This document shows positions 17,775-38,478 of a DNA stretch of 64,000 bases, one piece after another. The stretch spans positions 1 to 64,000 of the forward strand of contig JAHFRW010000010.1 of assembly GCA_023266055.1 (NCBI GenBank), in the 5' to 3' direction. The stretch comes from Gammaproteobacteria bacterium (GTDB taxonomy: Bacteria > Pseudomonadota > Gammaproteobacteria > Ga0077554 > Ga007554). Each line of letters opens with the position of its first letter. Position 1 is the first letter of the stretch. A model generated the notes under the pieces. The model worked only from the letters and a program-made list of their open reading frames with translations. It was not told where the DNA came from and ran no database searches. The translations under genes were made by a program, and so were the position numbers.

Positions 17775-18240
17775 CGGCACGATATTACAGATCACGTATG
17801 GGCGCATTTGCCTGGGCGTGAAGGCCCCTGGGGCGGCATTGCCTAAAGACAACTGGCAAGTTATCAATGCAGTATTCTGGATATTTTCGCACCGGCGCAC
17901 CGTGGCGTGATCTCCCACCCACCTAAGCAGGTTCACGACCTCCTTGCACACATGAAAGCGCAGCATCTACTGACGGACAAAGGCTATGACAGCGATGCCA
18001 TTGTGGAGCCAGTCCAGAAACAAGGAATGCCGTGATTGTGCCGCGCACAAACCGTAAAGAGCAACGCGGGGATGACAAAGATTTGTAGCGACTGCGCCAC
18101 GTGGTGGAAAACGCATTCCTGCACCTCAAACGCTGGTGCGGCATCGCAACACGTTATGCCAAAAACGTGTCGTCATTCCTCGCAGCGGGATACATTCACT
18201 GCCTGGCAGTGTGGCTGGAAATCTCGTGACGATACTATCT
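17775..18240 (+). pseudogene. IS5-family transposase relic, frameshifted and internally deleted
   Basis: Across frames: RHDITDHVWAHLPGREGPWGGIA*(R)QL..CSILDIFAP, then LTDKGYDSDAIVEPVQKQGMP, then a VENAFLHLKRWCGIATRYAKN-like tail in another frame. Confidence 0.8.
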
Positions 18241-19026
18241 AGCACCATGACGCCAGTTAATTTCATGCGCCGTCTTTTCTCCGACAAGAACAGGCCCAAG
18301 ACTGCTGGGCATTGCCAGCTCACTTTCTGAGACAGGCACTCGCCCCCCCATAATCTCGGCTCTTCTCTGAGGAAAGCGTGGCTCTTGATGAGGATCCGCG
18401 TACCCATCGGGATACACGGGGAAATTTGTACTCGGGTCATACTTGTCAGTAGCACCGACGATATGCAAAAACTCATGCGCAATCACCACATTGTTTGGCC
18501 CTGCCATTTTCTCGCTGGCAAACGCATTCACCACACCGACCAACCCTTTTTCCAGGCCAAATGAGTGATCCAGGGTATCGTGCATTTCAGGATCATAATA
18601 AACAACAAACATGCGGATATCGGGCGCCGGGCCGTTATAGGTATCGGCCCGAAATGCCCAATAACGCATTTTAAGACTCCACCATATGACCGCCAGTGTA
18701 TCGCCATTATGGGGTGGTTTGGGAGGGAGATCGGTAACCACCGGGCCAAGCTTGATGCTCACAGGCTTATCAAGCTTTAACTGATAGCGCCGTGCTTCAC
18801 GCGCCATGAACGCTTCTATATCGCTGAAATTTTCTTTCCTTACACTATCGACATATGCCGCTGATGTCGCGCTACCGTCACCATTGATCGGATAGATCAC
18901 CACCCATAAGGAACGATCCCAATCCGTGGTACGGAGCTTGTTTAACCAGGTATTGGCCGCCACGAAAACCAGCAATAGCAGGAGAAATGTAATCCGTAGC
19001 TTGCGAAACGTCCCACCTTTTACCAT
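18235..19026 (-). CDS. Membrane-anchored putative zinc metalloprotease
   Basis: N-terminal TM segment and VVIAHEFLHIVGATDKYD (HExxH) motif. Confidence 0.7.
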   Translation of the reverse strand: MVKGGTFRKLRITFLLLLLVFVAANTWLNKLRTTDWDRSLWVVIYPINGDGSATSAAYVDSVRKENFSDIEAFMAREARRYQLKLDKPVSIKLGPVVTDLPPKPPHNGDTLAVIWWSLKMRYWAFRADTYNGPAPDIRMFVVYYDPEMHDTLDHSFGLEKGLVGVVNAFASEKMAGPNNVVIAHEFLHIVGATDKYDPSTNFPVYPDGYADPHQEPRFPQRRAEIMGGRVPVSESELAMPSSLGPVLVGEKTAHEINWRHGAR

Positions 19027-19056
19027 GCCCTATTTCCCGCACCCGCAAAAGACAGA

Positions 19057-20424
19057 CTACGCGCCGAACAACCGCCATTCTTCCGTATAGAAATGGAGGG
19101 CGGGCACGGGTTTATCTGTCAGCCTGATGGTTTCCAGCACGCGTTCGTTCTGCCCATCCAGCACCGAGACTGTGCCATCGGTAGGATTGGAAATGAAAAT
19201 GCGTACAAACTTGCCGTTCTGCTCAATAAATCCAATGGGGCGCCGCCCACACTCCGCAACACCTACCTTGACCTCTTTAATCAAGGGCAATACCGGCGAC
19301 GCACCGGGAAAAGCGGTAGCCGCAGATTTTGCGGGTGGCGCGGCAGGTGGAATGCCGGAAGCCACCAGTGCCGACGTATCAAATACCAACAAAATATCCT
19401 TTTTGAGATTGGCGCGCTGCACGCCTTTGCCGGTCACTGCTGTGGTTAAATATAACTTTCGTCCATCATGGCTAAAACGATAAACGCTGGGATAGATGTC
19501 CGGCAAATCAATGGTTTCAAATACGGTTCTACTGACCACATCCAGCACGGTCAGCTTGCCAATCACATGCTCAGGCTGCGTGGTGCGATCCGCACCTTTG
19601 CAAATGATGAAACGGCCATTCGGACTCAACAAGGCATTGCTGCTAAGACCAACATGAATCGAGTCTTCAATGGTATTGGTCAATGGATCCATCACGACTA
19701 CCGTGCCATAACCATTATTAAGGTTATAGACCTTACCCGTTAATTCCGAGTACGCCATGCCATGAGGTGCAGCACCATTGGAAAATCCGGCGTCCACTTC
19801 TGTCTCACGCGCCGTATCCTGCAAATCAATCGTCGCTATCACTTTCAAATAGGTTGAAACATCGGCGGGGTCATTGCCTACCACTGAAATATCACCGCTC
19901 ATCAGATTGCTGATAAATGCACGGCGGGGTGTCGCTGGCATCATGGGCGTGGGATAAGTGAAGGCCACCACATGATGACCGCGCCCCACGCACAGTGTGC
20001 TCAGCACATTAAGTGGCATACCTTTATGGTCGGGGCGCTTGTCATTCTGGATAACCGTGACTGACGATCCTGCTGCTCCGCAATTCACGGGATCCGTACC
20101 GGTCGTCTTGTCTCCGTCATTTCCCAGCCAGAGTTGCGACTGATCAGGGTAACGATACATATGATCCGGGCACGCATTCACCGGGAATTTTTTATGCGTG
20201 ATGATTTTTTTCGTCATCGGGTCAAACAATACTGCCTGATGATCTGGTGTAGCATTTAAAAAAACACCGGGCGATGCGCCACTGTGTAACTCGGCATCCA
20301 GAGTTGTTACACGGGTTTTGCCACTACCACTCTCATGGTGAATAACGGCAATCTCACCTGTTTCTTCGTTGCCAGCGTAGCATACTAAAGACCAATCAAG
20401 ATCATCGGTTTTATCAGACGTCAT
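19057..20424 (-). CDS. YVTN-type beta-propeller protein
   Basis: Repeated blocks such as GTVSVLDGQNERVLETIRL, GTVVVMDPLTNTIEDSIHVG, GKLTVLDVVSRTVFETIDL; no obvious signal peptide. Confidence 0.7.
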   Translation of the reverse strand: MTSDKTDDLDWSLVCYAGNEETGEIAVIHHESGSGKTRVTTLDAELHSGASPGVFLNATPDHQAVLFDPMTKKIITHKKFPVNACPDHMYRYPDQSQLWLGNDGDKTTGTDPVNCGAAGSSVTVIQNDKRPDHKGMPLNVLSTLCVGRGHHVVAFTYPTPMMPATPRRAFISNLMSGDISVVGNDPADVSTYLKVIATIDLQDTARETEVDAGFSNGAAPHGMAYSELTGKVYNLNNGYGTVVVMDPLTNTIEDSIHVGLSSNALLSPNGRFIICKGADRTTQPEHVIGKLTVLDVVSRTVFETIDLPDIYPSVYRFSHDGRKLYLTTAVTGKGVQRANLKKDILLVFDTSALVASGIPPAAPPAKSAATAFPGASPVLPLIKEVKVGVAECGRRPIGFIEQNGKFVRIFISNPTDGTVSVLDGQNERVLETIRLTDKPVPALHFYTEEWRLFGA

Positions 20425-20478
20425 TTTAATATCCTGTTTTTCTTGGAAACCAATTCATCATGAACCATAAAATCAGGA

Positions 20479-21204
20479 TTACTGTTCCGGAACGGGTGTC
20501 ACCCGAATGGGCGCAGGTTGTTTTGATAGCGGTTTATCGACATCCGGGCTGTTACGATCTGTCCACTCTCTGCCTTTACGCGCCATAAACTCGGCTTCTT
20601 CCCTGGGCAACGGACCCCGCGCCAGAATACCTTCCCACTCCCACATCGCCGCACGTGCCTTACGCACGTGGGGATCCTCGGGAGGCGACAGATGTACGTA
20701 AGTGCGCATGGCACCTAATGCACCCTGAAAATCGCCCCGCTGCTCCAGCGCAACTCCCAACCCCCAGTAAGCATTCGACTGATAAGGTCGCAACGTGGTT
20801 GCCTTGTCAAAAAAATTCACCGCCTCTTCATAACGCTCAAGACCCAGCAAGGCATATCCCATATTGACATGCGCATCCACCAGATTGGGCGAGAGTTGCA
20901 GCACACGCTGCAATGCCGTAATGGCGTGCTCGTATTGCTTGGCATGCAGCATTACCACCGCCTGCTCAAAACGCGTTTTTATTTGCGCCATGCGCACTTG
21001 CTGGGAGTGGCCCTTAGGATCCTTGGCAGGATCAATCACGGCCTGCGGCACAGGCGGTGGTGGCACAAATATCGGATTGTGCATCACGCCCACCAGCATC
21101 GCCACCATGCCCAGCACCAACGCCAATGAAATAAACGAGGTTGACTTTGATGTATCCGACACTAGGCCTGGCGATACATGGGGTTGCGTCAATGCTGTGC
21201 TCAT
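20479..21204 (-). CDS. Membrane-anchored TPR protein
   Basis: TM at ~30-45; ALQRVLQLSPNLVDAHVNMGYALLGLERYEEAVNFFDKATTLRPYQSNAYWGLGVALEQRGDFQGAL TPR units. Confidence 0.85.
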   Translation of the reverse strand: MSTALTQPHVSPGLVSDTSKSTSFISLALVLGMVAMLVGVMHNPIFVPPPPVPQAVIDPAKDPKGHSQQVRMAQIKTRFEQAVVMLHAKQYEHAITALQRVLQLSPNLVDAHVNMGYALLGLERYEEAVNFFDKATTLRPYQSNAYWGLGVALEQRGDFQGALGAMRTYVHLSPPEDPHVRKARAAMWEWEGILARGPLPREEAEFMARKGREWTDRNSPDVDKPLSKQPAPIRVTPVPEQ

Positions 21205-22073
21205 ACCACACCTTTGTGTGCAGCTTCGCTGTAAAAAGGTGTACCAAAGTACGTGATAAAAGCAAAAACAAATACGGCAATAATAGCAATGGCGCCCACA
21301 CGAATTGGAATGCGGTAGGTAAGCCGCGCATGAATGCTGGCACCCAATAGAAGCCAGTTAAGAAAAGAAGATGTTTCCAGCGCATCCCATGCCCAATAGC
21401 GCCCCCAGGCATCCTGCGCCCATACCGCACCCGCGGTAAGCATTAAACTGTGAAAAATGAACGCCAGCAACATGAAACGCCACGCCAGCGCATCCAGCAC
21501 TTCATCGGCAGGCACATGACGAAACCATGATGCAAATCGCTGCGTATTACGCAGTAATATCACCCCAGCCAAGCCGGTGCCCACCAGACAGAAGGACAGA
21601 AAAATCTTTCCCAAACCTACATGCGCCCATAACCAGTCATTGTGATAAGTGGGTGGCAGCGCGGTATCCACGGGCTGCAATGCCAACACCCAGCCACCCA
21701 GCACCCACATCATGGGTAATGCCACCACCGCGCTGGGACGCAACAACGGCACTCGCCAGTACACCACGGCAAACACCAGGCCCAGGCTCCACAATTGACT
21801 CATCAGCAGTTCAAACAAATTAACAAAAGGGCCATGACCAAGACGCATCCAGCGCTCGGCAATCGCGATGGCAATCAGGGCCACTCCCATGGACACCATG
21901 AGCAGTACAAATTTTTCATGGGTGCGCACCACCGCCATTGAGCCCACCGTGGCGACTTGTGCTCGCAGGATACCCATGACTGCGGCCACCGTGGCCAGTA
22001 CATACGCCGTCAGCCCAGCCCATAACCAGGGCAATTCTGTGGCGCGACTGATTACACCTGTCATGTCATTCAT
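21201..22073 (-). CDS. ccsA: Cytochrome c assembly protein CcsA/ResC (system II)
   Basis: Polytopic, WAQDAWGRYWAWDALETSSFLNWLLLGASIHARL (WWD-type motif). Confidence 0.9.
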   Translation of the reverse strand: MNDMTGVISRATELPWLWAGLTAYVLATVAAVMGILRAQVATVGSMAVVRTHEKFVLLMVSMGVALIAIAIAERWMRLGHGPFVNLFELLMSQLWSLGLVFAVVYWRVPLLRPSAVVALPMMWVLGGWVLALQPVDTALPPTYHNDWLWAHVGLGKIFLSFCLVGTGLAGVILLRNTQRFASWFRHVPADEVLDALAWRFMLLAFIFHSLMLTAGAVWAQDAWGRYWAWDALETSSFLNWLLLGASIHARLTYRIPIRVGAIAIIAVFVFAFITYFGTPFYSEAAHKGVV

Positions 22074-23146
22074 AAAAACCTCCCATCGGTCGTTTCCGGC
22101 ATCTTCTGCAATCGCCCTATCGACCCAGCGGGCGACCCAGCAGCGTGTGAAGATGGCACGCGGACACCCACCTTAAGCCAGAAATGCGTTGCCAAACCCG
22201 TAATCGCTATCAATGCTGCGCCAAACAACCAGTGCAGGGTAGGATCATAAAATACCTTGTACCCCATCCAGGTAGTCAATCGGTCATAGCGCAGGTTACC
22301 GCCCGGCAGTTGCACGTTTTGTCCCGGCTCAAGCTCAACTCGCTGCTCGCCTGTATTCACTACCAGAACTCCGGTCGCCGTTTTTCCATTCAACACCCAC
22401 GCCGCATCTTCACGCAAGCCGGTCTTTAAGCGCAACCAGAACTTGATCTCCTGACCATTCGGTGGCGTCCAACTGCTGTCCTGCTTGTACTCAAACAACG
22501 GGTAGGGCGGCATATGTATGGTGCCACTAATCGCCTCGCCCTGCTCAGGAATCCATGTCAATATTGGTGCAAACCCTTTATTAAAGGTCGTGTAAAAACG
22601 ATAGCCTTCCAGGATCAGGGGACGATCGTCTCCTACCACTTTGGTTTGCCAACCCTGCCCACCACCCGATGCATTTGCCTGACCGTCTGGTATCAAAACC
22701 TGGCTATGGGTCAAACCACGCACCATGCCAGAAGAATAATCCACGGTAAATGATCCCTGCACAAAGGCCAGCTGCTGCAATGCGCCGGAATGTAACGGGC
22801 CTTTTTCCAGGTTGGTCAGATCGGAGGGTGAAAAAGGAGTGCCTTCGGTAATTTCCAGTTGCGCGTCGAAATGTGTCAGGCGCCCGACGCCTGCAAGCAC
22901 AATAATCGCTAGCAGACCCAGATGGAACACCAGCAATCCACCACGGCGGTTGATACGAGGATTGGTGGCAATAGCCGCCAGCAGGTTAACTGCCAGAAAG
23001 GCCAGTGGCACAACCAGCACCCAGACCGGCGTCTCTGCCGGATTATCGTAACTGAGCGCCGCGCCAATGGCCAGCAGGAACATCCCCACCAACGCCAGTC
23101 GTGTAGAGCCCAAACCGCGACCCATATTCATCATGCGGTGGGTCAT
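22070..23146 (-). CDS. resB: Cytochrome c biogenesis protein ResB/Ccs1
   Basis: TM segments, large periplasmic domain, YFTTFNKGFAP / GYKVFYDPTLHWLFGAALI; overlaps ccsA start. Confidence 0.85.
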   Translation of the reverse strand: MTHRMMNMGRGLGSTRLALVGMFLLAIGAALSYDNPAETPVWVLVVPLAFLAVNLLAAIATNPRINRRGGLLVFHLGLLAIIVLAGVGRLTHFDAQLEITEGTPFSPSDLTNLEKGPLHSGALQQLAFVQGSFTVDYSSGMVRGLTHSQVLIPDGQANASGGGQGWQTKVVGDDRPLILEGYRFYTTFNKGFAPILTWIPEQGEAISGTIHMPPYPLFEYKQDSSWTPPNGQEIKFWLRLKTGLREDAAWVLNGKTATGVLVVNTGEQRVELEPGQNVQLPGGNLRYDRLTTWMGYKVFYDPTLHWLFGAALIAITGLATHFWLKVGVRVPSSHAAGSPAGSIGRLQKMPETTDGRFL

Positions 23147-25809
23147 GGCAGATTACTGCACGTCTCACCGCCAAAACCGTTCATCCAGCTAATACCGCGA
23201 TTGCCATTACCTGGCAGCCCTGCCGAGCCACAGTTTTGTGGCGTCCATTCTCCACTGCGCCTGAAGTTTACAACCTTGAGGGTAGAGCCATTGTAATAAG
23301 GGCCATTGTAATAACGTGCAGTCGTGTTATTGCGCACCTGGGTTCCCGCAGGCAAGCCACCTTCCAGGCCCACGTCGTTGAGATTGACCAGGAAGTTCTT
23401 GTTTTTCCAACCATGCGGAACAGCAATGTGGCAGTAGGTACAACGGAAATTCTGTACCACCTGCGCATGACCGGTATGCAGGTTGGTCTGCTGGACATTC
23501 AAGCAACCCGTGCCCGACCCATCCGTGGGATTACGCGCGAAACCACTCTTTAATGTTTGGCTCGCGGTTATAAACCCCGGCCCAAACTTCTTCCCATAAT
23601 AATCGTAGTTATGGCATTTGAAACACAGATGATCCTGCTTGTTCTCGCCGGACTGATCATCCCACGGGCCTTTCAGCAGGAAGTCACTGTTGGAACCGTG
23701 CGGCCCCCATACATTGCCTTGCTCGCCGCCGTCCGGCACCACGGTACCCGGTGCCGTGGTCGAACCATGACAATCCGTGCAATACATGGTCTGAATACCC
23801 ACACCGGTATTGAACGGCTCACGCCAGATGTTTGGACTATCCACCTTGCGTATATCAATGGTACGTCCGGTGTCCTTCAATGCAGGATGCCAGGAACGAT
23901 GGTTGTCATTCTGGAAATCCACGGAATACGCCTGACCCGGCGGGTTGCCGACATACGCACCACTGCGGGTAGGTGACGTACCTTCGCCCTTGTGTTCATC
24001 CGGCGACTGATATTCCATGCCTATGTTGGTATATTGAATCATCGCGTTAGTGCCTGATGGCGTTCCTCCCGAAAATGTCCCCAGCATCGGTGGCTGGTCA
24101 AACCCATAATTGGAATGGCACTTCATGCATATTTGATACTCGCGGGTCACATACGGCGCGCTGACATCGGTACTACCGCCCACACCCGGATCACCGCGCT
24201 TTACAGTGAACACCTGCGGCTCACTGCCGAATTCGGTGCTTGGCCAGCCACTCGGCTCCACGCCGGTAATACCACGCAACACACCGGACGCCAGATTGGT
24301 GTGATGCCGTTCCGGGGTTGCCGCAATCTGCGCCGGACTGTGATTATGCGTCCCTTCGGAATCAGGAATCGAGGTATCCGCATTGAAACGACGATTTTTG
24401 GTCACGCGATGCGGGTTATGGCAATCGGTACACTCAGCGTGGCGATTCTGCAAACCACCGCCTTCACCGTGTTTATTTACGCGGCTGGCCTTGCCCATAT
24501 TGGCAGGCGACTCCAGAAAATCCTTACCGGCCTGTGACTCGCCCGCTGAGCCAATATCGTGCCGCTCACGCCCGGCTGGCTGATCCCGGCTGGCAATCGG
24601 CATGTGGCGTGCCATGGTAGTAAAGTCTGTCTTGATATCCGGTACTTCAAAACCGGGTTTGACCCCTTGGCCTTGCAGCGTACCCCCGTCGGTTGAGTGA
24701 CAGGCATAACAGGTTTCCTCAACGGCGGGATTGCCCCCCTGTTTAAAGCGGGCGCCGTCCGCCCCGATGATGGTGGGGCCATCGGTACCTTCACGCAAAA
24801 TACGGCGCGAACCTTGCACCGTATGTGGATCATGGCAATTCAGGCACGCCGCCTGCCACACCGGCAAGTCCTTGGGGAATTCACGCAATTTGGCCGCAGC
24901 GTCCGTATAACGCTCATTGCCCACCGCAGGATGCGCATGCGCCGAACCGACCCAACCCGCCTTGTCATGACACCCTAGGCAGATCAGGTCATCTTTTTCA
25001 TTGAACACCTTATCGGTAGGTGGTTGCTGCTGAAAACGATTAACGCGAAGGAATTTAATGCTCTCGCCCGAGGTATCGCGCAGGTGCGGGTCGTGGCAAG
25101 TGACGCATTCCACCTTATTATCTTCGAGTGGCAGGGTCGGCTTTACACCCGGCGTACGGGTACCCAGATGCGACACCGTCATCGGGTCATACAATTCCCC
25201 ATCACGCATGGCCTGCGCACTGTCATAGGTAAAGGAAATCGGGTGATCATTGGTTAAATCCGTGCCGAGCAAACGCGTAAATCCGGTATGTCGGCCACGC
25301 CCCTCAGGAATAGTGTCGTTTGCCCCAATGCCGGGGCCGGTAAAATCAACCTTGGGATTTTCTACGCGGTTAAGCACATTCACTGAACCCAGTGCCAGCG
25401 TACCGTCATGGCATGACAGACACAATCTGGATTTACCGCCCGGCTGACCCAGGTCAGTCGCGTCAAGCGACCCTGAGGTATAGGGAATGTACGTTGCCCC
25501 GGACAGCTTGCGATTCCACAACGGGGTTTTAGGCGCCAGGTTGGCGCCATGCGGGGTATGACAAAACGCACACACCTGCGATTCACTGACCGCCTTGGCA
25601 TCGCGCGTAATACCGTCCGGTAAAATCGGCACAATGACAGCGGAGAAATTATGCTTGGTATTACGAATATCCGAAATGCGCTCGGCCTGCACACCCACAG
25701 GGACACTTATCGCCAGCACAGCCGCCACGAGTAACAGCAGGGCCACCATCCAACGTGGCCTTGATAAGCGATGGAACAACCCTCGCACACTCATGCGCCT
25801 TCCCCTCAA
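23143..25809 (-). CDS. 11-heme c-type cytochrome
   Basis: Signal/anchor plus 11 CXXCH counted: CAFCH, CLSCH, CVTCH, CLGCH, CLNCH, CYACH, CTDCH, CMKCH, CTDCH, CFKCH, CTYCH. Confidence 0.93.
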   Translation of the reverse strand: MRGRRMSVRGLFHRLSRPRWMVALLLLVAAVLAISVPVGVQAERISDIRNTKHNFSAVIVPILPDGITRDAKAVSESQVCAFCHTPHGANLAPKTPLWNRKLSGATYIPYTSGSLDATDLGQPGGKSRLCLSCHDGTLALGSVNVLNRVENPKVDFTGPGIGANDTIPEGRGRHTGFTRLLGTDLTNDHPISFTYDSAQAMRDGELYDPMTVSHLGTRTPGVKPTLPLEDNKVECVTCHDPHLRDTSGESIKFLRVNRFQQQPPTDKVFNEKDDLICLGCHDKAGWVGSAHAHPAVGNERYTDAAAKLREFPKDLPVWQAACLNCHDPHTVQGSRRILREGTDGPTIIGADGARFKQGGNPAVEETCYACHSTDGGTLQGQGVKPGFEVPDIKTDFTTMARHMPIASRDQPAGRERHDIGSAGESQAGKDFLESPANMGKASRVNKHGEGGGLQNRHAECTDCHNPHRVTKNRRFNADTSIPDSEGTHNHSPAQIAATPERHHTNLASGVLRGITGVEPSGWPSTEFGSEPQVFTVKRGDPGVGGSTDVSAPYVTREYQICMKCHSNYGFDQPPMLGTFSGGTPSGTNAMIQYTNIGMEYQSPDEHKGEGTSPTRSGAYVGNPPGQAYSVDFQNDNHRSWHPALKDTGRTIDIRKVDSPNIWREPFNTGVGIQTMYCTDCHGSTTAPGTVVPDGGEQGNVWGPHGSNSDFLLKGPWDDQSGENKQDHLCFKCHNYDYYGKKFGPGFITASQTLKSGFARNPTDGSGTGCLNVQQTNLHTGHAQVVQNFRCTYCHIAVPHGWKNKNFLVNLNDVGLEGGLPAGTQVRNNTTARYYNGPYYNGSTLKVVNFRRSGEWTPQNCGSAGLPGNGNRGISWMNGFGGETCSNLP

Positions 25810-26984
25810 TGCTTGCCCAGATATTGAAACACTACGACACGTCCGTTGAACATATCTGCCACATAAATGCGGTCACGCTGATCTCCCCACACACCTGCCG
25901 GCAATACAAACTGGCCTGTGCCGCTCCCCCCACCACCTATTGGCAATAAAAATTCACCCTGTGAATCAAATACCAGCAAATGATCATAGTAGGATTCTAC
26001 GACATAAATATTACCCGCCGCGTCGGCCGTGACACCTTTCGGCCGTACCAGATCACCCACGAACAAACCGCGTCGACCAAATACCTGCAATACCTTTGCG
26101 GCTAAGCCCATGGGCGAGGTCACCGCCAACGTCTGCGCCGCGCCTGAATCAGGCGCGGCGGCCGGGTCCATCATGGCCACGGCATCCACCGCCAGCACCT
26201 GAATACGCGCATTCAAGGTATCCGCAACGTACAGTTTACCATCTGCAAATGAAAGATGGGTGGGTGAATTAAATTCACCCGGCACCTCACTCCGCTGCCC
26301 ACTGCCCAACGTCGCCAGCACATTGCCGGCATCATCAAACACCCTGATCTGGTGCAAATGTGAATCCGCCACATAGACACGACCGTGCAGGGCGTCCCGT
26401 GCCAGCCCGGTGGGCCGCTTGAGCAGGCCTTTGCCAAAGCTCCCTACCGGCACCCCGGCGCTATCAAGACGAAACACCTGACCCAGCGAAGCATCGGTAA
26501 CCAGCACCTCTCCGTTCGCTCCCATCGCAATGCCGATGGGCATCTCAAAGCGGAGATTTTGCTCGGCCATCTCCCACACCTGGAGACTGCCTGCCTTTTC
26601 ATCAAATACATATACTGCCTGGCGACTGACATCGGTCACGTAAATTCTGCCGTTATTGTCCACCATACCGGCCTGTGGCCGCTGCAATATTACCGCCTGA
26701 TTTTTTTCCGAAAGCAATCCCACCAGCCATTTCAGGGCTTTTAAACCTGAGGCAACAATCCCACTTTCGTTGCGCTGGATGTTCTCTTCGCCCGTCAACT
26801 CACCTACATAACGATAACGCGGTATTTCGGGGGCCGGTGGCCACACCGTCTGCTGAGCACCCGGCACCTCATAGCGTAGGGTAGAATGGGTCTGCGCACA
26901 ACCAGACAACAATCCCGGCAGCAGCATGACGCCCATCAGCCCCCACACCCATCTCAAACCCGTACCGTGGTGTAGCCGAATCAC
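25806..26984 (-). CDS. NHL-repeat lipoprotein
   Basis: Lipobox (LLSGCAQ); repeated NHL-type blocks (GRIYVTDVSRQAVYVFD, GKLYVADTLNARIQVL, GNIYVVESYYDHLLVFD, DRIYVADMFNGRVVVFQ). Confidence 0.88.
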   Translation of the reverse strand: MIRLHHGTGLRWVWGLMGVMLLPGLLSGCAQTHSTLRYEVPGAQQTVWPPAPEIPRYRYVGELTGEENIQRNESGIVASGLKALKWLVGLLSEKNQAVILQRPQAGMVDNNGRIYVTDVSRQAVYVFDEKAGSLQVWEMAEQNLRFEMPIGIAMGANGEVLVTDASLGQVFRLDSAGVPVGSFGKGLLKRPTGLARDALHGRVYVADSHLHQIRVFDDAGNVLATLGSGQRSEVPGEFNSPTHLSFADGKLYVADTLNARIQVLAVDAVAMMDPAAAPDSGAAQTLAVTSPMGLAAKVLQVFGRRGLFVGDLVRPKGVTADAAGNIYVVESYYDHLLVFDSQGEFLLPIGGGGSGTGQFVLPAGVWGDQRDRIYVADMFNGRVVVFQYLGKH

Positions 26985-26996
26985 GTCAAATCCTTT

Positions 26997-28076
26997 TTAA
27001 TTCCTGCCACCAGCAGCACCTGACATCACACGCAACACCTGCACGCGACCATTCAGACTATCTGCCACGTACAACTGGCCTTCATCAAACCACAAATCGG
27101 TAATATAACGAAAATCACCCAATCCTGAGCCTGTCATGCCCACTCGTCCCAGCAAGCGGCCTTCGCCATAAATCTTGATCGTGTTGTCACTGAAGTCACT
27201 GACGTATACCCGACCCTCATTATCCACCGCAATCGCCGTGGGAAACGTGACGTCTCCTTGTGGCATGGAGTAACGGTACTTGCCGTCTTCTGCCAGCACC
27301 TGAATGCGCTGACCAAAGCGCGCTGTCACATAATAACCATCCACGCCCGCTGCCATCGCGGTAATATTCAAAAACTGACCGGCATCACTGCCCCGGCCGC
27401 CGCCGGACGCAACCAGATTACCAAAACTGTCAAACGCCAGAATATGATCATACACCCCATCGGCCACCAGCACACGACCACTGGCCTCATCCACGCTCAC
27501 CGCCACGGGCCGGGCAAGATTCAGAGTATTACTATACGTTCTGATTAAACGACCGTGCCGATCAAACTGCAGGACACGACTGCCCATGGGATCAGCGATA
27601 TAAAACGACAAATCACGCGCCACATAAAGATCCGTGGCTTCGCCTGCCAGCACACCGCGCAAGCTCATCACCACCTCAAGACTGCCCATGATGCGGTTAT
27701 ACTTAAACAGAATATCCTGCCCCGCATCAATTACAAACACATCATTGCCCCGCACGGACACCGCCACCGGGCGAATAAATTGCATGTACCTGACACCCGT
27801 GAGCGCGTTACCCTGTGGGCCACCACGAATAATTTCCAGCGGTACCAGAATTTGTGAAGCGTCATCCTGCCGCGTAAACACTGAAGGATTGACGAGCACC
27901 CCATCCGAAGATGCCGTGGCCGGACTGGAAGATGCGGCGGGCGCATTGATTTGCGACGCAGGGGCCGGTTGCTTTTTGCCCAGCAGGGAGCACCCTCCCA
28001 ACAAGAGAGTGTCGGCCAGAACAACGGCCAGAACGATTAACGGAAACCGGCGGTTTGCCGAGGAACGGAGTGACAT
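26997..28076 (-). CDS. NHL-repeat lipoprotein (paralogue)
   Basis: MSLRSSANRRFPLIVLAVVLADTLLLGGCSLL lipobox; NHL blocks (GRVYVSDFSDNTIKIYG, GQLYVADSLNGRVQVL). Confidence 0.88.
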   Translation of the reverse strand: MSLRSSANRRFPLIVLAVVLADTLLLGGCSLLGKKQPAPASQINAPAASSSPATASSDGVLVNPSVFTRQDDASQILVPLEIIRGGPQGNALTGVRYMQFIRPVAVSVRGNDVFVIDAGQDILFKYNRIMGSLEVVMSLRGVLAGEATDLYVARDLSFYIADPMGSRVLQFDRHGRLIRTYSNTLNLARPVAVSVDEASGRVLVADGVYDHILAFDSFGNLVASGGGRGSDAGQFLNITAMAAGVDGYYVTARFGQRIQVLAEDGKYRYSMPQGDVTFPTAIAVDNEGRVYVSDFSDNTIKIYGEGRLLGRVGMTGSGLGDFRYITDLWFDEGQLYVADSLNGRVQVLRVMSGAAGGRN

Positions 28077-28711
28077 CGACCACAATTCTTGGTTGGCGCA
28101 AAAGCGACTTTGCCGTGGCACACGCCACAATAATTACCCTGGATAATCGCAGCCATGTTCACTGGATTAGCCCCCTTCTGCGGCAAAAAGATCAGCGGAT
28201 GACAATTGGCGCACGTCAACCATTCCGTGTGCTGGCGGTGCGGAAAGCGCACATTGGGCATCGAACCAGTGTTTGTAAAGATCACATCAAAATCCACCGG
28301 AAACATCTGATCTTCACCGTTCAAACCCTTACGCGGATCAATCAACCCCTGATCCAGCGCCTGCACCCAATCCGTCTGCCCCTTGGCGTCACGCGGAAAA
28401 CTGCCCAAGGCCTCGACCGGCTCCTGAAAGACACTGATCGCAGAATTGGTAGGATCACGAATGCCGTCTTCGGCGAGCGGTACCACATCACCTTGCGTCT
28501 GAAAATGCCTACCCTTCGACCAGATCAATTCGTCGGCCATCGCAGTACTGGTCATGGCCGCACCTGTCACCCAGCACAACATTGCCATGATGACACCCAA
28601 CCACCGGGCGCCATACCCCCCACCCATCCCCATACCTGTACGAAGAGGCATAAAGTGACGATCCAACCGGAGACACGTGTTATCGCTCATAGATACTCCA
28701 GACCCGCGCAC
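28037..28711 (-). CDS. Triheme cytochrome c (c7-type domain)
   Basis: CANCH, CGVCH, CGRCH; FPHRQHTEWLTCANCHP. Confidence 0.9.
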   Translation of the reverse strand: MRGSGVSMSDNTCLRLDRHFMPLRTGMGMGGGYGARWLGVIMAMLCWVTGAAMTSTAMADELIWSKGRHFQTQGDVVPLAEDGIRDPTNSAISVFQEPVEALGSFPRDAKGQTDWVQALDQGLIDPRKGLNGEDQMFPVDFDVIFTNTGSMPNVRFPHRQHTEWLTCANCHPLIFLPQKGANPVNMAAIIQGNYCGVCHGKVAFAPTKNCGRCHSVPRQTAGFR

Positions 28712-28804
28712 TATCCCACCTCAGAGAATTTCTGAACCTTGAAAAGGACTGTATTCTGGCCCATAACTCCCCACATCATTTAGAGATTTACACCTCTACA
28801 AAAA

Positions 28805-30157
28805 TTAATTCACGCCCGCAATCATCAGTGCGCGCTGTAAATACGACGTGGCTTCCTGCAGGGTATTGATGGCGCCCACATAATCACCCTTTCCCGCCAG
28901 CTGCGCCGCTTCCACATTCAGCCCTTGACTCTTTTTCTCTAATTCAGCCATTTTATCAACCGTGATGGCCGGTGGCTTTTTCTGATCCAGCGCCAACGGA
29001 ATCAATTCTTCATAGCTTTTATAGCGAGCCACTTCATACTCGTACTCAGCAGCCGGTGTCGCAAAGTTTTTATCGTACACAACGGTTTCATTATCCAGTA
29101 ACGCACCCAGTGCACCCGTCACCATACGTTGCGCATTAGCCAGAATTTTATTCGCCTCATCATAACGCCCGGCATCACCATGTCCCTTGGCCTGGCTCAT
29201 CAAATCCTGGAATTTTTTTTCATCCAGCGCGGCAGCCGGTTTCTTTTTTCCTGCCAGACGCTCGCTATGCTGCTTGTAAGATGACTCAAATGTCTTGGTC
29301 GCATCCAGCAACTCAGCATAGCGGAACTTGGGGTCAAGCCCTGTGTCCTGAGTGTCGCTCGGCACCAGGCGCACTGCGGCAGTCACCAGACGTATCGACT
29401 CATCCACTTCGTCCTGCGCCTTGGCAAGGTTATTCGTCCCCAGTGTCACGCGCGCCGCATCCAGATGCGTACGTGCACTGGCCAGCATTTCCTTGGCCCG
29501 CACATGGCTGCTGGCACTGACACGCTGCGCACCTTTCGATGTATTCATCAGCATGTTGGCATACTCAATTTTTTGCTTGACCTGCATCTCCGTCACTACG
29601 GCATGGTCCGTCTCTGGATGCCCCTCTGCAGCGGCACGCGATGTCACGGGGGCGACCGCAGCACCCTCCAGCGTAGACGCTTTACCCTTGTCAACAATCC
29701 TGAGCATACCCCCCATGCTTCTGTGATTACGACACTGGTAATACACGACATCCGGCGTCGTCGCCGAGGGCGTGAATGTCACCATGCCACGAAAGGTAAA
29801 CTGCCCCTCCACTCCATCAGTCACCGTACTACCACCCTGCCCCACCGCGCTGGTCGAAAAATAAAAATCGTGTTGTGGCCCGGTATCGATGTTAAAGGTA
29901 TATTCCACACCCCGCGTCAACACCAGCGTCTTCCCTTGCACACCGTCCAGCGCCAGACCAATTTTATGACCCTGCCCGAAAAAGGGATGGGTTTGATCTT
30001 TGGTGACAGCGGTGATGGAAAACACCCGCTGCTCTGTACTTTTACTATCTGTGGGAGCACCCGCGGCTACAGATGCAGCACTGTAAACCCCCGCAAAACC
30101 CAACGAAATTATCTGGAATAAAAACCAAATCTGTCGACCCATAAGCTTCATGATCAT
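28805..30157 (-). CDS. Secreted cupredoxin-domain protein fused to helical repeat region
   Basis: Signal peptide; GPQHDFYFS...VVYYQCRNHRSMGGMLRI (H/C/H/M type-1 copper pattern); long Ala/Lys-rich helical C-terminal region. Confidence 0.75.
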   Translation of the reverse strand: MIMKLMGRQIWFLFQIISLGFAGVYSAASVAAGAPTDSKSTEQRVFSITAVTKDQTHPFFGQGHKIGLALDGVQGKTLVLTRGVEYTFNIDTGPQHDFYFSTSAVGQGGSTVTDGVEGQFTFRGMVTFTPSATTPDVVYYQCRNHRSMGGMLRIVDKGKASTLEGAAVAPVTSRAAAEGHPETDHAVVTEMQVKQKIEYANMLMNTSKGAQRVSASSHVRAKEMLASARTHLDAARVTLGTNNLAKAQDEVDESIRLVTAAVRLVPSDTQDTGLDPKFRYAELLDATKTFESSYKQHSERLAGKKKPAAALDEKKFQDLMSQAKGHGDAGRYDEANKILANAQRMVTGALGALLDNETVVYDKNFATPAAEYEYEVARYKSYEELIPLALDQKKPPAITVDKMAELEKKSQGLNVEAAQLAGKGDYVGAINTLQEATSYLQRALMIAGVN

Positions 30158-30387
30158 TCCCTAAAAATATCAATTAACGCAGCCGCGCAAGGACGTGCCA
30201 CAATAAAGTCAGCCCGCTGTATTCTCTCCACCTTGCCGGGACGTATTTCCTGGTGGCGCGTCCCGATTATTTATTTCCTGTGCAGACAACCGTGTCCATC
30301 ATTATTTGCCAGGATTATTATGTTTGATACCCAAAGGACGTCCCACACGGAGACGCCCTTTGCAGCACTTGCCTCATGCCTAATGAC

Positions 30388-31131
30388 TTATTTCCATGGA
30401 TTCTTGAGTGTTGCCTCGCTCAATGGCGGCTTCCAGTCATCCGGTTTCGGCTTGGAATGACACTTGCGACACGACTTGGTTGTAATCGGGAACGATACCT
30501 TGCCATGACATACGCCACATTTCTGTCCCAGCAGGATGGCAGACATGTTGATCTGGTTCGCGCCTTTTTGCGGAATAAAGATCGCGGGGTGGCAGTTTGA
30601 ACAAAACAGCCATTCGGTATGCTGGCGATGCGGGAACACCACATCCGGCACTGACGCTTTTACTGGACGGACAATATCCAGATCCATGACAAACGGCTCG
30701 GCATCGGGATCTTCCCTTTCCCAGCGCGGGCGGATCTTTTTATCATCGAGGGTTTTCACCCAATCCACACGATTACCGTATTCGGTAGGTGGCAGCCCTT
30801 CAAAAGCCGGCTTGGGCGCCGCAAGAATATGCGTGGCCTCGTTTTGTGGATCACGCAGACCATCTTCAGCCGGGGGCAAATGGATGCCCTTGGGCTTCTT
30901 CAGATTACGATTGAAGCTGTTAATATCGTCCACCTGCGCAATATGAATAACCTGCACATCGGACTGGGCCATTTCATCAACCGGCTTGTATTCTGGCGCG
31001 TAAGACAAATCCTTGACCGGGACCGAACCATCGGGACGCGGTGCAACCTGGGGTTGGGCGCTGCACGCCGACCCCACCAGAAACAGCGAGAACGCGCCGA
31101 CCATAAAGAGTGTTTTTTTATGCAAATTCAT
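30388..31131 (-). CDS. Triheme cytochrome c lipoprotein (c7-type)
   Basis: CSNCH, CGVCH, CRKCH; FPHRQHTEWLFCSNCHPAIFIPQKGANQINMSAI; lipobox VGSAC. Confidence 0.9.
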   Translation of the reverse strand: MNLHKKTLFMVGAFSLFLVGSACSAQPQVAPRPDGSVPVKDLSYAPEYKPVDEMAQSDVQVIHIAQVDDINSFNRNLKKPKGIHLPPAEDGLRDPQNEATHILAAPKPAFEGLPPTEYGNRVDWVKTLDDKKIRPRWEREDPDAEPFVMDLDIVRPVKASVPDVVFPHRQHTEWLFCSNCHPAIFIPQKGANQINMSAILLGQKCGVCHGKVSFPITTKSCRKCHSKPKPDDWKPPLSEATLKNPWK

Positions 31132-31163
31132 GTACTTTCCCCTCCTTCACTAGATTTTAGTCA

Positions 31164-31631
31164 TTACTTTTTAGGGGCGGCGGCAGGCGCAGGGGCAGCA
31201 GAACCTGTGAGTGGCTGATACGGCGGAGCCACCAAAGTCTGTACTGTGCTGCCATGAAAATGGGTAGGGGTTCCGGGCACGCCCGAATGGCACATACCGC
31301 AGTTTTCCACCGACCAGGCAATTTCACCGTTATGGCAGGCACCACAGAATTTGCCGTCAATGATTTTGGCCATGGTAATTTTGTTACCGCCGGCCTTGAA
31401 CTGGAAGCCCAAATCAGCATGACACACCTTGCAACGAAAACGTATGCGGTGGAACCAATGCGAAAACACCGCCGGACGCATACCCGCCGCATCGGCGTAG
31501 TTATTGATGACCACGTCTCCGTATTCAGCTTGCGCTGGCGCGGGTGCTACCAACATGGCCGCCCAGGCAACCACCCCCAGAGCAAGCGCCCTCCACGTAA
31601 TACGACCTTTCATTATCGGTAACATCAGCAC
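31164..31631 (-). CDS. Triheme cytochrome c (c7-type), periplasmic
   Basis: CKVCH, CGACH, CGMCH; FSHWFHRIRFRCKVCH; signal peptide. Confidence 0.9.
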   Translation of the reverse strand: MLMLPIMKGRITWRALALGVVAWAAMLVAPAPAQAEYGDVVINNYADAAGMRPAVFSHWFHRIRFRCKVCHADLGFQFKAGGNKITMAKIIDGKFCGACHNGEIAWSVENCGMCHSGVPGTPTHFHGSTVQTLVAPPYQPLTGSAAPAPAAAPKK

Positions 31632-31795
31632 TCTCCCCTCGTTTTAAAAATAATCCTGACTCCATGCACCACCACGATCGAACCTCAATCACGATGATTC
31701 ACATTTTAACCTGTACACACAACAACCACACCGTCCAAACCAACGATCATCACCCCGGTCAACGGTGCGCCCCTGACCGCTCTTTGCACTACGCA

Positions 31796-33667
31796 TCAGA
31801 AACGCCGCGCGATACGCGCCATTACCAGACTTGAATTTTGCCCATCAATCTGTATTAAACGCAAGCTTAAACTAGTATCTAACAACCCAATCATATAATC
31901 CAGCCGGTTATCCCACTCGGCACGATCGATCCCCGCTTCCGCCGCGGCCCGGGATACAAACAAGTTTGACAGAAAACGCAGATTCGTCACACCAAATATA
32001 TTAGAATGCTGATAATCCACCCGCCCTGTCGCCGTCGCGACATCGGTGCCCACACCCAACTGCGGAAATTCCTGACGCACGTACTGTACTGTCAGATTAC
32101 CCGACAAAAAACTGGAACGATTCAACGGCTGGACACGCAAAACCTGAAAATTCACCAGTTGCTGCTGATCCGTGGTATCGGTCAGCGCACGTGAGTCCGA
32201 AAGCGTCATCTGTACTGTAGAATTCCCCCCGCCCCCCGCCGCCTGATTCCAGGCCACAGTCCCAGTATGATCCAGACGCGCATTAGAAGCACCAATGCCG
32301 GCATATTGACGTGTCGCCAGCGACCCTTGATGATCCTGGTAAAGCGTAACTGCTTCATCGTTAATGCGGTAAGCACCATTGATCGACTGTCCCAGACTGA
32401 CGTTCAACGAAGAAATTTCGCTTAAAAACCAGGTTTTTTGCCCGTTATGAGACAGCGAGGACGTCACTGTCTGGCGAGCCGTCTCTTCGCCTGACTGATT
32501 ATCCAGACTACCGGTGGCAAACCAGCGGTATATAAACCCTGATTTTTCATACAAATCAGATTGATACAACAGTCCTGCCTGCTGGCGGGCCAATTGGGTT
32601 TCGGAACCGTTGCTTTGCGTATTGGTAAATGCCGCGCTGGCATCAAAACGCCATTTCCTGCTTAACTGATAAAAAAATCCACCCGAGGCACTGACCGACA
32701 GCGAATCACTGGACGCCACCGGCGCATTACCCTGCAGGTCATAGACACGTACCCCGCCACTCATCGACCAGGGCCGGGCGTCCGGGCGCCAGAAAAAGAA
32801 GCTGGAAGCCTGCATAATATCCGTGGTGCTACTGCCATAGGTGGAACTGGCGCTGGTCACACGGAACGAACGATCAAAAGTATAATAACTGGCTTTGTTG
32901 TCGATGCGAAACGAAGGCGAAGGCAAATAAAAATGGCTCAGGTCAAAAATAACACTCTCATTACGCAACTTGCTCAAAGAGTGATCTGTTGTGCCCTGAC
33001 TGAGCTTCACCAATACATTTTGCTTGCCACGCCGCACATCCGCTTCGGCACCCAGCAACACGTCATCATAACTACCATCACTCGCCGAACTCCAGCTCGA
33101 TGAATCGTAACGCACCATAAAACGATCATTTTGATCATTGAGGTAAGACTGCCGCAATTCCAAGCGTGTGGTATCAAACTCAATGTCCGTAAACATCACT
33201 GGCGCACTCGAAATGCGGGTTGCATCAATACGGCTATTGCTTGCCAGATACCGCAACCCGAATGGCGCCTTGCTCTGTGGCAACACATTAAGATTGAATT
33301 CGCCCGTCACGATCGTTGCTTCATTATTCACAAGACCACCATCCGCCATGCTGGCGCTGGAACCCCCGCTAAACTCCGTAGTGTCCCTGGCAAATGTAAT
33401 CCCGCCCTCAACCGTAGCAAGCCATGGCTGCCATAAGTAAGAACTGGCATGCGTATTGGCCAGCCATTGATAACTGGTACTATCTGCATTGCTGGTACCG
33501 CTCAACCAGCGGTAGCTGTACCCCACGCTGCCCGACACCTCAACCGGCCCCAACGAAACGGCGAACACATGCACGGGCCACGCCAATGCCAGCAGCACCA
33601 GCATCGCCATGACCATATCAGATCGACTCCCCGATCGACTTACCGTGCTGTCAATATTAAAATTCAT
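31796..33667 (-). CDS. Large outer-membrane beta-barrel (candidate porin of a porin-cytochrome conduit)
   Basis: Signal peptide; 623 aa of alternating aromatic/polar strands; ends ...SLSLRLIQIDGQNSSLVMARIARRF (C-terminal aromatic). Confidence 0.75.
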   Translation of the reverse strand: MNFNIDSTVSRSGSRSDMVMAMLVLLALAWPVHVFAVSLGPVEVSGSVGYSYRWLSGTSNADSTSYQWLANTHASSYLWQPWLATVEGGITFARDTTEFSGGSSASMADGGLVNNEATIVTGEFNLNVLPQSKAPFGLRYLASNSRIDATRISSAPVMFTDIEFDTTRLELRQSYLNDQNDRFMVRYDSSSWSSASDGSYDDVLLGAEADVRRGKQNVLVKLSQGTTDHSLSKLRNESVIFDLSHFYLPSPSFRIDNKASYYTFDRSFRVTSASSTYGSSTTDIMQASSFFFWRPDARPWSMSGGVRVYDLQGNAPVASSDSLSVSASGGFFYQLSRKWRFDASAAFTNTQSNGSETQLARQQAGLLYQSDLYEKSGFIYRWFATGSLDNQSGEETARQTVTSSLSHNGQKTWFLSEISSLNVSLGQSINGAYRINDEAVTLYQDHQGSLATRQYAGIGASNARLDHTGTVAWNQAAGGGGNSTVQMTLSDSRALTDTTDQQQLVNFQVLRVQPLNRSSFLSGNLTVQYVRQEFPQLGVGTDVATATGRVDYQHSNIFGVTNLRFLSNLFVSRAAAEAGIDRAEWDNRLDYMIGLLDTSLSLRLIQIDGQNSSLVMARIARRF

Positions 33668-34692
33668 TAATTATTATCATTGTCCTTGATGACGACGGGA
33701 GTGCGTGCACGCAACCCCTCAATCAACCCCTGCCACGCTGCATCAGCCTGCTCACGCATCAATAATTCACGCGCCCGTGGCTCAGCGGCCACGGCATCGT
33801 TCAACACTGCCGCAGCACGCTCACCCAGCCGCAACACCACCACCCCCTGCAGCAACATCACGGGATCCGAAATGTCCCCTGCCACCATTTTATCTAGCAC
33901 CTGCTGCGCCTCAGCGGCCAGCATGCCGTGATGCACATACCCCAAATCCCCGCCCCTGGCGGCTGAACTGTCAGCAGAATGCAAGCGCGCCAACTCCGCA
34001 AAATCCGCACCGTTGCGCAACTTGCCGACCAGCTGGGCGGCCTCCTGCTCGGCCACTTTCCACATTTGCGCAGATGCCGACGGCGCCACTTTCAGCAAAA
34101 TCAACGAAACACGCACACGCTCGGGCGTGGTGAATTGATCCAGATGATCCTGATAATACTGACGCACTTCCGCCATGCCTGGCACAGGCACCTGCTTCAC
34201 CTGCGCTTCAAGCTGTGCCAGCTTATCTTCGTCTTCCAGGCGGCCACGCAACAACGGCAGGGCACGCTCCCTGTCCGCACGCCATTCTGACGTACCCGAC
34301 AGACGTTGCTCAATCTGGGCCAGTTTGGCATCCACCGCCACCGTATTCGCCACAATACCGCGACGCCTGATTTCCTGCCGCAACAGCACTCGATCAACCA
34401 GACGTTGCGTTACCTCAAGACGATACGCGGTCAACTGCTCCGGTTGCGGCGCGCCGTGAAAAAACCTGCGGCGCATGCCCTCATGCAGGGCCGCCTGGAA
34501 CTCCTCGCGGGAAACACTCTCTTCCCCCACCATTGCAAAAGGCGTTGATATTTCAATGGAAGACGACTGAACTGCACCAACCGCCGATTCAGTCATTGCA
34601 TCAGGCGCCGCGTATACCGCCGGCACCAGTGCCACGGCTAGCAGCGCCACCCCTCCCTGCCAGGCACCCAAACGCCACCCTCTATTTGGCAT
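33667..34692 (-). CDS. Secreted peptidyl-prolyl cis-trans isomerase, parvulin/SurA-like
   Basis: VRVSLILLKVAPSASAQMWKVAEQEAAQLVGKLRNGADFAELARLHSADSSAARGGDLGYVHHGML parvulin motif. Confidence 0.88.
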   Translation of the reverse strand: MPNRGWRLGAWQGGVALLAVALVPAVYAAPDAMTESAVGAVQSSSIEISTPFAMVGEESVSREEFQAALHEGMRRRFFHGAPQPEQLTAYRLEVTQRLVDRVLLRQEIRRRGIVANTVAVDAKLAQIEQRLSGTSEWRADRERALPLLRGRLEDEDKLAQLEAQVKQVPVPGMAEVRQYYQDHLDQFTTPERVRVSLILLKVAPSASAQMWKVAEQEAAQLVGKLRNGADFAELARLHSADSSAARGGDLGYVHHGMLAAEAQQVLDKMVAGDISDPVMLLQGVVVLRLGERAAAVLNDAVAAEPRARELLMREQADAAWQGLIEGLRARTPVVIKDNDNN

Positions 34693-35515
34693 GGCAGGTC
34701 AAGCATACCGCACTGCCCTTCGGATCTACGCGCAGAAAAGTAGGGTTATAATCAACATGCGGATCATGGCACGACGCGCATTCCACATAGGGCTGTGGCT
34801 CGCCGGCAAACCGGCCACGCGTGCCCACGCGGGTATACAGCTTCATATCCGTCTTCTCAAACGCCAGCGAGCCCTCCACCGGCGTGTTCACCCACCATAC
34901 GCGCTCAGTGCCCACAATGGCGGTACTGGCCTGATTAAAATCCTTGTCCGCACCCGGACCGGAAGGGTTGGAGGACGAATACCCCCCTCCCGCAAATTGA
35001 ATACCGACAGGATGGTCATTGGTCAAATCCTTGCCAAGATTGGTAATCACACTGGGCGGCGCAATGCGGCCACCTACTGTAGAGGCCTGACCACTCCAGC
35101 GACCCGTGCTGAAACCTTGCACAATACGTCCCGATCCTGGCTCATTGAGCAATGAATCCATTGCCTGGGTACCATCGTGGCACGACAGGCAGGCCAGCGA
35201 TACCGACCCCACCTGCTCCACATGAGCATCCAGCGTGGTGGTACCCATCTGATCGTAGGTCTGGAACCCATTAGGATCAAGATTACGGTTCCACAGCGGC
35301 ACAGCGGCCGCCTCATTGGCACCATGAGGGGTATGGCAGAACACGCAGATCTCGCGCGTACCGCTGAACTGACTGGCCGCGTTAATGCCGGTACTGCCCA
35401 GATTGTGCTTGGTATTAAAAATTCCGGCCAAAGCCCCCCCCGCCACCAATAATAGCAGCACAGCAATAATCAGATTTTTTCCGGAGGCCGTGTGGCTACG
35501 GTACTTTATTGTCAT
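34682..35515 (-). CDS. Tetraheme cytochrome c, doubled-CXXCH / cytochrome c3-like
   Basis: CVFCH, CLSCH, CASCH, CLTCH; FNTKHNLGSTG...CVFCHTPHGAN...PLWNRNL; signal anchor. Confidence 0.92.
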   Translation of the reverse strand: MTIKYRSHTASGKNLIIAVLLLLVAGGALAGIFNTKHNLGSTGINAASQFSGTREICVFCHTPHGANEAAAVPLWNRNLDPNGFQTYDQMGTTTLDAHVEQVGSVSLACLSCHDGTQAMDSLLNEPGSGRIVQGFSTGRWSGQASTVGGRIAPPSVITNLGKDLTNDHPVGIQFAGGGYSSSNPSGPGADKDFNQASTAIVGTERVWWVNTPVEGSLAFEKTDMKLYTRVGTRGRFAGEPQPYVECASCHDPHVDYNPTFLRVDPKGSAVCLTCHAK

Positions 35516-36826: not shown

Positions 36827-36902
36827 TTAAGCGTTCATCTCCTAAAATATCTTGCAAAAACAGCATACCAACACTTTATGACAACTCGGTGACAACCACC
36901 AT

Positions 36903-36943
36903 AAAAAAACGGGCAGCCCTTCATAAAGACAAGGCTGCCCGTC
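36903..36943 (-). terminator. Rho-independent terminator downstream of porin 2
   Basis: Minus strand: cgggcagccttgtctttatgaagggctgcccgttttttt. Confidence 0.88.
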
Positions 36944-37010
36944 TATACCTCCCCCATACCAACGGGGAAAGCGCACCACAAGCGGGGTTACTGCGCCCCC
37001 GCTCTATGCT

Positions 37011-38072: not shown

Positions 38073-38240
38073 TTGCTCCCTATAAATTTAAGTGCATGTT
38101 AAACAGAAATAAAGCCACAAACATCAGATGGCATGGGGGCAACTTTACAAGGCTGACCCACGAAGATGCAACACCTTTCGTAACGAAAACCACAACCGAC
38201 GCCAAAGTGTAGCAAATATGATACAGCGGGTAAAAATTAA

Positions 38241-38463
38241 AGTGTGTCGCCGTGCTCGCGAACCATTAATTGGGACATCCCCGTCCCAATTAATGACTGC
38301 GCCCGGCAACAAGTACGCCTGCAGCGCCCGGACAGGCCTGTCGTTGTTTCCCCATGTTGTCTATACGGGTGCTCTCGCACTCATTCCGACAACACAGGGA
38401 AACCTCGGCTATCCGGGGCTTGCCCGCCACCGCTCGCTTTCGCGTCGCCCTCCCTGGCGGGCG
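38241..38463 (+). repeat. Structured repeat R, copy 1
   Basis: gtgtgtcgccgtgctcgcgaaccATTAATTGGGACatccccGTCCCAATTAATgactgcgcccggcaacaagtacgcc... through tccctggcgggcgc; second copy inverted at 39867-40147. Confidence 0.88.
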
Positions 38464-38478
38464 CTTCTGTATCTTCTA

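Follow-up and report, generated by a model that had tools for sequence, protein, structure and literature searches.

A probable Uet electron-transfer cluster with OmcE-like cytochromes in a gammaproteobacterial genome

Gene content of the locus

The window analyzed here, a stretch of 64,000 nucleotides, belongs to a contig of 68.8 kb. The assembly, 2.7 Mb in size and 94.6% complete, represents a genome near the MAG Ga0077554. The list of open reading frames (ORFs) in the window places 15 co-directional genes on the minus strand within positions 18235-35515. Transcription runs through uetA to uetJ, from 35515 down to 23143, and then through genes for a ResB-like, a CcsA-like and a TPR protein. 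In that order, and under the names of the cluster to which we assign them below, the genes are:

34682..35515, minus strand: UetA, tetraheme cytochrome of the OmcE family with a signal peptide; 4 CXXCH motifs
33667..34692, minus strand: UetB, exported PPIC-type peptidylprolyl isomerase with a SurA-like N-terminus (PF00639, 1.3e-15; SurA_N_3, 2.5e-8)
31796..33667, minus strand: UetC, predicted outer-membrane beta-barrel, about 28 modelled strands, no plug
31164..31631, minus strand: UetD, triheme c7-type cytochrome with a signal peptide (PF14522, 9.5e-16; TIGR04257 nanowire_3heme, 6.1e-19)
30388..31131, minus strand: UetE, triheme c7-type cytochrome (PF14522, 3.7e-11)
28805..30157, minus strand: UetF, cupredoxin domain (His ... 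C-x2-H-x3-M) and a helical, TPR-like region (At5g54830-like domain, 1.1e-6)
28037..28711, minus strand: UetG, triheme c7-type cytochrome (PF14522, 5.4e-13)
26997..28130, minus strand: UetH, NHL-repeat lipoprotein (PF01436, 2.1e-15; lipobox LGGC); the ATG at 28076 is the more likely start
25806..26984, minus strand: UetI, NHL-repeat lipoprotein (PF01436, 2.2e-24; lipobox LSGC)
23143..25809, minus strand: UetJ, undecaheme cytochrome with an OmcE-like module at residues ~35-245; 11 CXXCH motifs
22070..23146, minus strand: ResB-like System II haem-ligation protein (PF05140, 3.6e-13)
21201..22073, minus strand: CcsA-like System II haem-ligation protein (PF01578, Cytochrom_C_asm, 1.6e-24)
20479..21204, minus strand: membrane-anchored TPR protein, the conserved last gene of the unit (PF07719, 1.3e-16)
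19057..20424, minus strand: YVTN/PQQ-type beta-propeller, outside the Uet core (TIGR03866, 1.4e-10, below the cut-off)
18235..19026, minus strand: HEFLH-motif protein, a possible zinc metalloprotease with no family match, outside the Uet core

An earlier sequence-only reading had counted 13 co-directional genes here; the shared direction holds and the number is corrected to 15. The overlaps that it reported at 21201/21204, 22070/22073, 23143/23146 and 25806/25809, giving 4-base overlaps at several junctions, and the base shared by two genes at 33667 were all found on the minus strand. Counting CXXCH motifs reproduced its heme numbers exactly (UetA 4, UetD 3, UetE 3, UetG 3 and UetJ 11; 24 in total), and its family assignments for the isomerase, the two NHL proteins, the multiheme cytochromes, ResB and CcsA were confirmed by profile matches (PPIC rotamase, SurA-like N-terminus, NHL, c7, Cytochrom_C_asm, TPR). 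The same profile search of the locus products placed three proteins in the cytochrome c7 family and two in the doubled CXXCH family.

Just upstream of uetA, at 35744-39543, stand three tandem Gram-negative porin genes (Porin_4), the first two of which encode proteins of 85% identity and have 461 identical bases in common. In 9 related loci the cluster likewise has a similar porin upstream of it. Near the end of the window, an ORF at 61319-61942 contains a YTDDFVVLC stretch, like that of a group II intron reverse transcriptase.

Uet membership and distribution

Uet (undecaheme electron transfer) clusters have been described in Tenderiales, first by Eddie et al. 2022 (via PMC10734462), and in Gallionella. 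In the accessible text of Hoover et al. 2023 (PMC10734462), their parts are the undecaheme UetJ, the tetraheme UetA, the trihemes UetDEG, the isomerase UetB, the barrel UetC and the NHL proteins UetHI, for which a porin-cytochrome complex forming a conduit across the outer membrane is proposed. The window holds the same ten genes A-J, and its D-E-F-G...J order is that of the Ca. Tenderia electrophaga locus tags Tel_16515-16545, in which 16515, 16520 and 16530 are the trihemes, 16525 a TPR protein and 16545 the undecaheme (Eddie et al. 2017, PMC5371394); on a cathode, the three triheme genes rank with those of highest expression in that organism (PMC5371394). On the Candidatus Tenderia contig L055 the genes stand in the order F-G-H-I-J-ResB, and in the UetJ tree its protein and that of the window fall within one clade of 14 with support of 100/100. 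Because the heme counts, the B, C, H and I parts, the gene order and the UetJ clade with Tenderia all agree, the locus is almost certainly a member of the known Uet cluster. The sequence-only reading had regarded it as an unnamed new combination of genes, which does not stand, since by these comparisons the combination is already known as Uet.

There are differences from the described clusters. UetF carries a cupredoxin domain here, whereas Tenderia's own protein is described as TPR only; two extra family-specific genes stand at the end of the window's locus; and no RuBisCO was found in the window's assembly. ResB-CcsA-TPR, which belong to the conserved unit, are not among the Uet parts in the accessible text of PMC10734462. 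The extra genes are specific to this bacterial family on present comparison: among the kept loci of the scan described next, the gene at 19057-20424 is in the same place only in the closest relatives, L043-L047, and the gene at 18235-19026 shares its place with L043-L045 and L047 alone.

When one genome per species was scanned, relatives proved to be encoded in at least 474 stretches, and the 79 best loci among these were kept. Upstream DNA was sufficient in 53 kept loci, and any given gene from A to I is present in 41-50 of them; ResB, CcsA and the TPR gene follow uetJ in 55, 51 and 51 of 66 kept loci, respectively. An automatic count of loci with the genes in order (36/53) was confused by paralogous cross-matches, between D copies and of H with I, and the gene strings are the better record. 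The carriers are Gamma-, Beta- (Ramlibacter, Ideonella) and Alphaproteobacteria, with Ideonella sp. A 288 and Ramlibacter albus GTP1 as apparent isolates. Because A-J with ResB-CcsA-TPR recurs in many contigs of these three groups, the assembly of the locus is more than chance, and conservation of the block as a unit in relatives, whose absence the earlier reading had named as grounds for rejecting its interpretation, is borne out. Of 369 genomes sampled from the class, 52 have a UetJ match at E <= 1e-10; genomes with partial or second-type matches are counted in this number. UetJ has 11 CXXCH motifs here and in 61 relatives counted, UetD has three hemes in 58/58 relatives, and UetA has four in nearly all.

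UetJ relatives also occur in other settings. Solitary 11-heme forms, with the other Uet genes absent nearby, are found at L089:9875-12508, L094:9965-12553 and L116:9932-12355, and likely in L080 and L108 too; several solitary relatives stand before a dihydroorotase-like gene. A second locus type, in other Gammaproteobacteria, comprises an OmcE-like tetraheme, an NHL protein, a barrel-sized ORF, another NHL protein and an 11-heme protein with an OmcE-like start (L151:4568-11527), and genes similar to these are present in L150 and L154. The UetC profile gave no match to the barrel-sized ORFs of this second type.

Cytochromes, barrel and accessory proteins

OmcE of Geobacter polymerises into conductive nanowires. 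When UetA was compared with the PDB, its sole sequence relatives there were 9YUQ (7.8e-28), whose entry contains a single chain in 16 copies, and OmcE of Geobacter sulfurreducens (7TFS, 1.5e-25), with an alignment that spans all four hemes. The UetJ profile likewise matched 9YUQ and 7TFS (7TFS at 7e-30), across its first four-heme region. Eight candidate haem-ligand histidine columns, namely those of the four CXXCH motifs together with KH, TPH, NDHP and a second xH, are common to OmcE, 9YUQ, UetA and UetJ; seven are kept in every compared row and TPH in 96%. A small tree groups UetA on the OmcE/9YUQ side, apart from UetJ, its exact position being weakly supported; in both the histidine and the tree comparison the OmcE and 9YUQ sequences came from printed alignments and possibly lack a few residues. 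We conclude from the alignments that UetA over its full length and UetJ over its N-terminal ~245 residues are homologous to OmcE. The differences from the OmcE system are that UetA is ~45 residues longer, that UetJ has seven more hemes, that a barrel, trihemes and ResB/CcsA are encoded within the Uet locus itself, and that a Uet filament is a prediction from sequence.

On inspection of the locus proteins, neither UetA nor UetJ has a lipobox, unlike MtrC-type surface cytochromes, which carry one. A search for internal repeats in UetJ gave only short matches local to CXXCH motifs and no clear duplication, and its AlphaFold model (mean pLDDT 48) was set aside. UetA had no match in a plasmid collection. 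In OmcE one interface haem is ligated by a histidine of the next subunit (PMC12954529, PMC12307469), and since the eight histidines are kept, the residues for polymerisation are available in UetA, which is not in itself proof. UetA may thus polymerise into an OmcE-like filament, an outcome that we would place just short of probable. No connection between Uet and OmcE was found in the accessible literature, which lacked the papers defining Uet, Osc and OmcE.

UetC has no Pfam or NCBIfam family, yet the beta-barrel claimed for it by the earlier reading is what AlphaFold returns: a transmembrane barrel (pLDDT 85.3, pTM 0.66) of about 28 long strands, as read by eye from the listed strands of the model, with no plug and a C-terminal Phe. 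The first Foldseek match in the PDB is MtrB (6r2q_B, 8e-10 but TM 0.38), followed by many large barrels, and a sequence profile search of the PDB returned nothing. It is the least conserved Uet part, with 20-41% identity outside the bacterial family. The model describes a very wide, apparently open barrel, compatible alike with a cytochrome-filled conduit and with the export of folded cytochromes. A TonB receptor or LPS exporter is rejected, as the model has no plug or extra domain, and UetC matched no transporter family, contrary to the unrelated transporter that, in the earlier reading, would have spoken against a conduit.

Like Mtr, Mto and Pio, Uet encodes a large outer-membrane barrel with multiheme cytochromes, and MtrB is the best, if weak, structural match of UetC. 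However, Uet lacks a decaheme related to MtrA, a match to the MtrB_PioB family and a lipoprotein surface cytochrome, and membership of these systems is ruled out by the heme counts (4, 3, 3, 3, 11), by the lack of PF11854 in UetC and in the assembly, and by the lack of a lipobox on UetA and UetJ. The mismatch with Mtr and Pio that the earlier reading had noted therefore holds, the closest solved relatives of the tetraheme and undecaheme being of OmcE type; the cupredoxin fusion, which that reading counted in the combination, is a lineage-specific extra. The Omb-Oma-Omc cytochromes of Geobacter have 8 and 12 hemes, and this system is ruled out because no locus protein has either number. By description only, the locus can be likened to the Osc (OmcS companion) machinery of Geobacter, in which, according to Shen et al. 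2025 as relayed in PMC13194489, one operon encodes a filament cytochrome together with factors for folding and secretion; that cytochrome, OmcS, is however described as without sequence homology to OmcE (PMC12954529).

Wherever an aligned ortholog possesses the N-terminal cupredoxin domain of UetF, one His and the C-x2-H-x3-M copper motif are kept. Alpha-, beta- and some gammaproteobacterial members lack this domain and retain the helical part alone; the position of UetF matches Tel_16525, annotated as TPR. As judged from this alignment, the copper site, restricted to some gammaproteobacterial members, is an optional addition, and the domain is probably a periplasmic electron carrier.

The 'private' haem ligation of the earlier reading is a fair description, the ResB of the locus being the sole ResB match in the assembly. 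Other Cytochrom_C_asm proteins are encoded on contig C57, in a cluster resembling System I (Ccm). DsbA-like (L059:15303-15938) and thioredoxin/TlpA-like (L083:19511-20041) genes, so named from their sequences, are found repeatedly on the downstream side of uet, in 8 and 7 loci respectively, and fit a System II haem-ligation set. On contig C57 of the same genome, a second OmcE-like cytochrome gene (275 aa, 5 CXXCH) overlaps a gene for a UetI-like NHL lipoprotein (L149:5221-7145); this smaller second pair adjoins two class I (cbb3-type) cytochrome genes, near the ccm-like genes.

Probable electron transfer across the outer membrane

The locus probably moves electrons between the periplasm and the cell exterior, either through the outer membrane or on its outer side; this part of the sequence-only reading stands as the best explanation and agrees with the published Uet proposal. 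A search for experiments on Uet proteins found none, and both their localisation and the transfer of electrons are predictions. The trihemes UetD, UetE and UetG would carry electrons in the periplasm, joined in some gammaproteobacterial members by the copper domain of UetF, and UetC would be the passage for the cytochrome chain through the outer membrane. UetA and UetJ would be the cytochromes outside the cell, and UetA may well take the form of an OmcE-like polymer there. UetB may assist the folding of exported cytochromes, the NHL lipoproteins UetH and UetI may have an assembly role at the outer membrane, and ResB, CcsA and the TPR protein would serve the attachment of the many haems.

The data are compatible with flow in either direction, inwards from Fe(II) or a cathode, or outwards to a mineral. 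Searches of the assembly found no RuBisCO large subunit, no quinol-linked NapC/NirT and no MtrB_PioB (PF11854), and they did find a haem-copper oxidase. The autotrophic uptake of electrons that has been proposed for Tenderia therefore does not simply carry over to this genome. With no NapC/NirT found in the assembly, the link from the locus to the respiratory chain is missing, and no quinol dehydrogenase recurs among the genes shared by the relatives' flanks. These absences are provisional because the assembly is incomplete.

A sharper form of the conduit explanation, to which we give a little under an even chance, is that Uet mainly assembles and secretes an OmcE-type filament, with UetB, the NHL lipoproteins and the wide barrel exporting UetA, and UetJ acting as base, cap or branch. 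The whole-length homology of UetA to OmcE with the same eight histidines, the intersubunit ligation of the OmcE interface haem and the lack of a lipobox on UetA and UetJ all speak for it, as do an OmcE homologue of Geoalkalibacter that adjoins two NHL proteins and other multihemes (PMC12016550) and the folding and secretion factors of the OmcS operon (PMC13194489). The histidines would, however, be required in a monomer as well, UetA exceeds OmcE in length, and an OmcE-like module is also found in UetJ, which with its seven more hemes is not known to polymerise. Alternatively, the complex may be static, with UetJ or a triheme occupying UetC in the way that MtrA occupies MtrB, and with UetA as a monomeric surface cytochrome that forms no filament. 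This is the porin-cytochrome complex of the published model, as given in the accessible text of PMC10734462, and MtrB is the best solved match of the barrel; yet there is no MtrA-like decaheme, MtrB_PioB family member or lipid anchor on UetA or UetJ, and the closest proteins of solved structure are a filament cytochrome and the 16-copy entry 9YUQ. We regard a static conduit as slightly less likely than the filament reading.

Very improbable, in our view, is a soluble respiratory pathway whose cytochromes stay in the periplasm beside an unrelated transporter. The trihemes are of the periplasmic c7 type and a haem-copper oxidase is present, but the barrel lies inside the conserved block and has neither transporter family nor plug, and UetA and UetJ resemble an extracellular cytochrome.

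Four findings go beyond what the accessible literature describes for Uet: the homology to OmcE, a barrel modelled with ~28 strands, the conservation of the haem-ligation genes at the end of the operon, and a copper domain limited to certain lineages. We tentatively suggest that Uet may be a proteobacterial assembly machine for OmcE-type nanowires rather than a static complex, in which UetA is exported via the barrel with the NHL lipoproteins, the isomerase and its own haem-ligation pair, and UetJ forms the filament base. If this is true, many uncultured Gamma-, Beta- and Alphaproteobacteria would make nanowires. Few systems are candidates for electron uptake in iron oxidisers and bacteria of biocathodes, and Uet is one of them; with UetA and UetJ tied to OmcE, the general porin-cytochrome model can be tested directly, by looking for tetraheme filaments.
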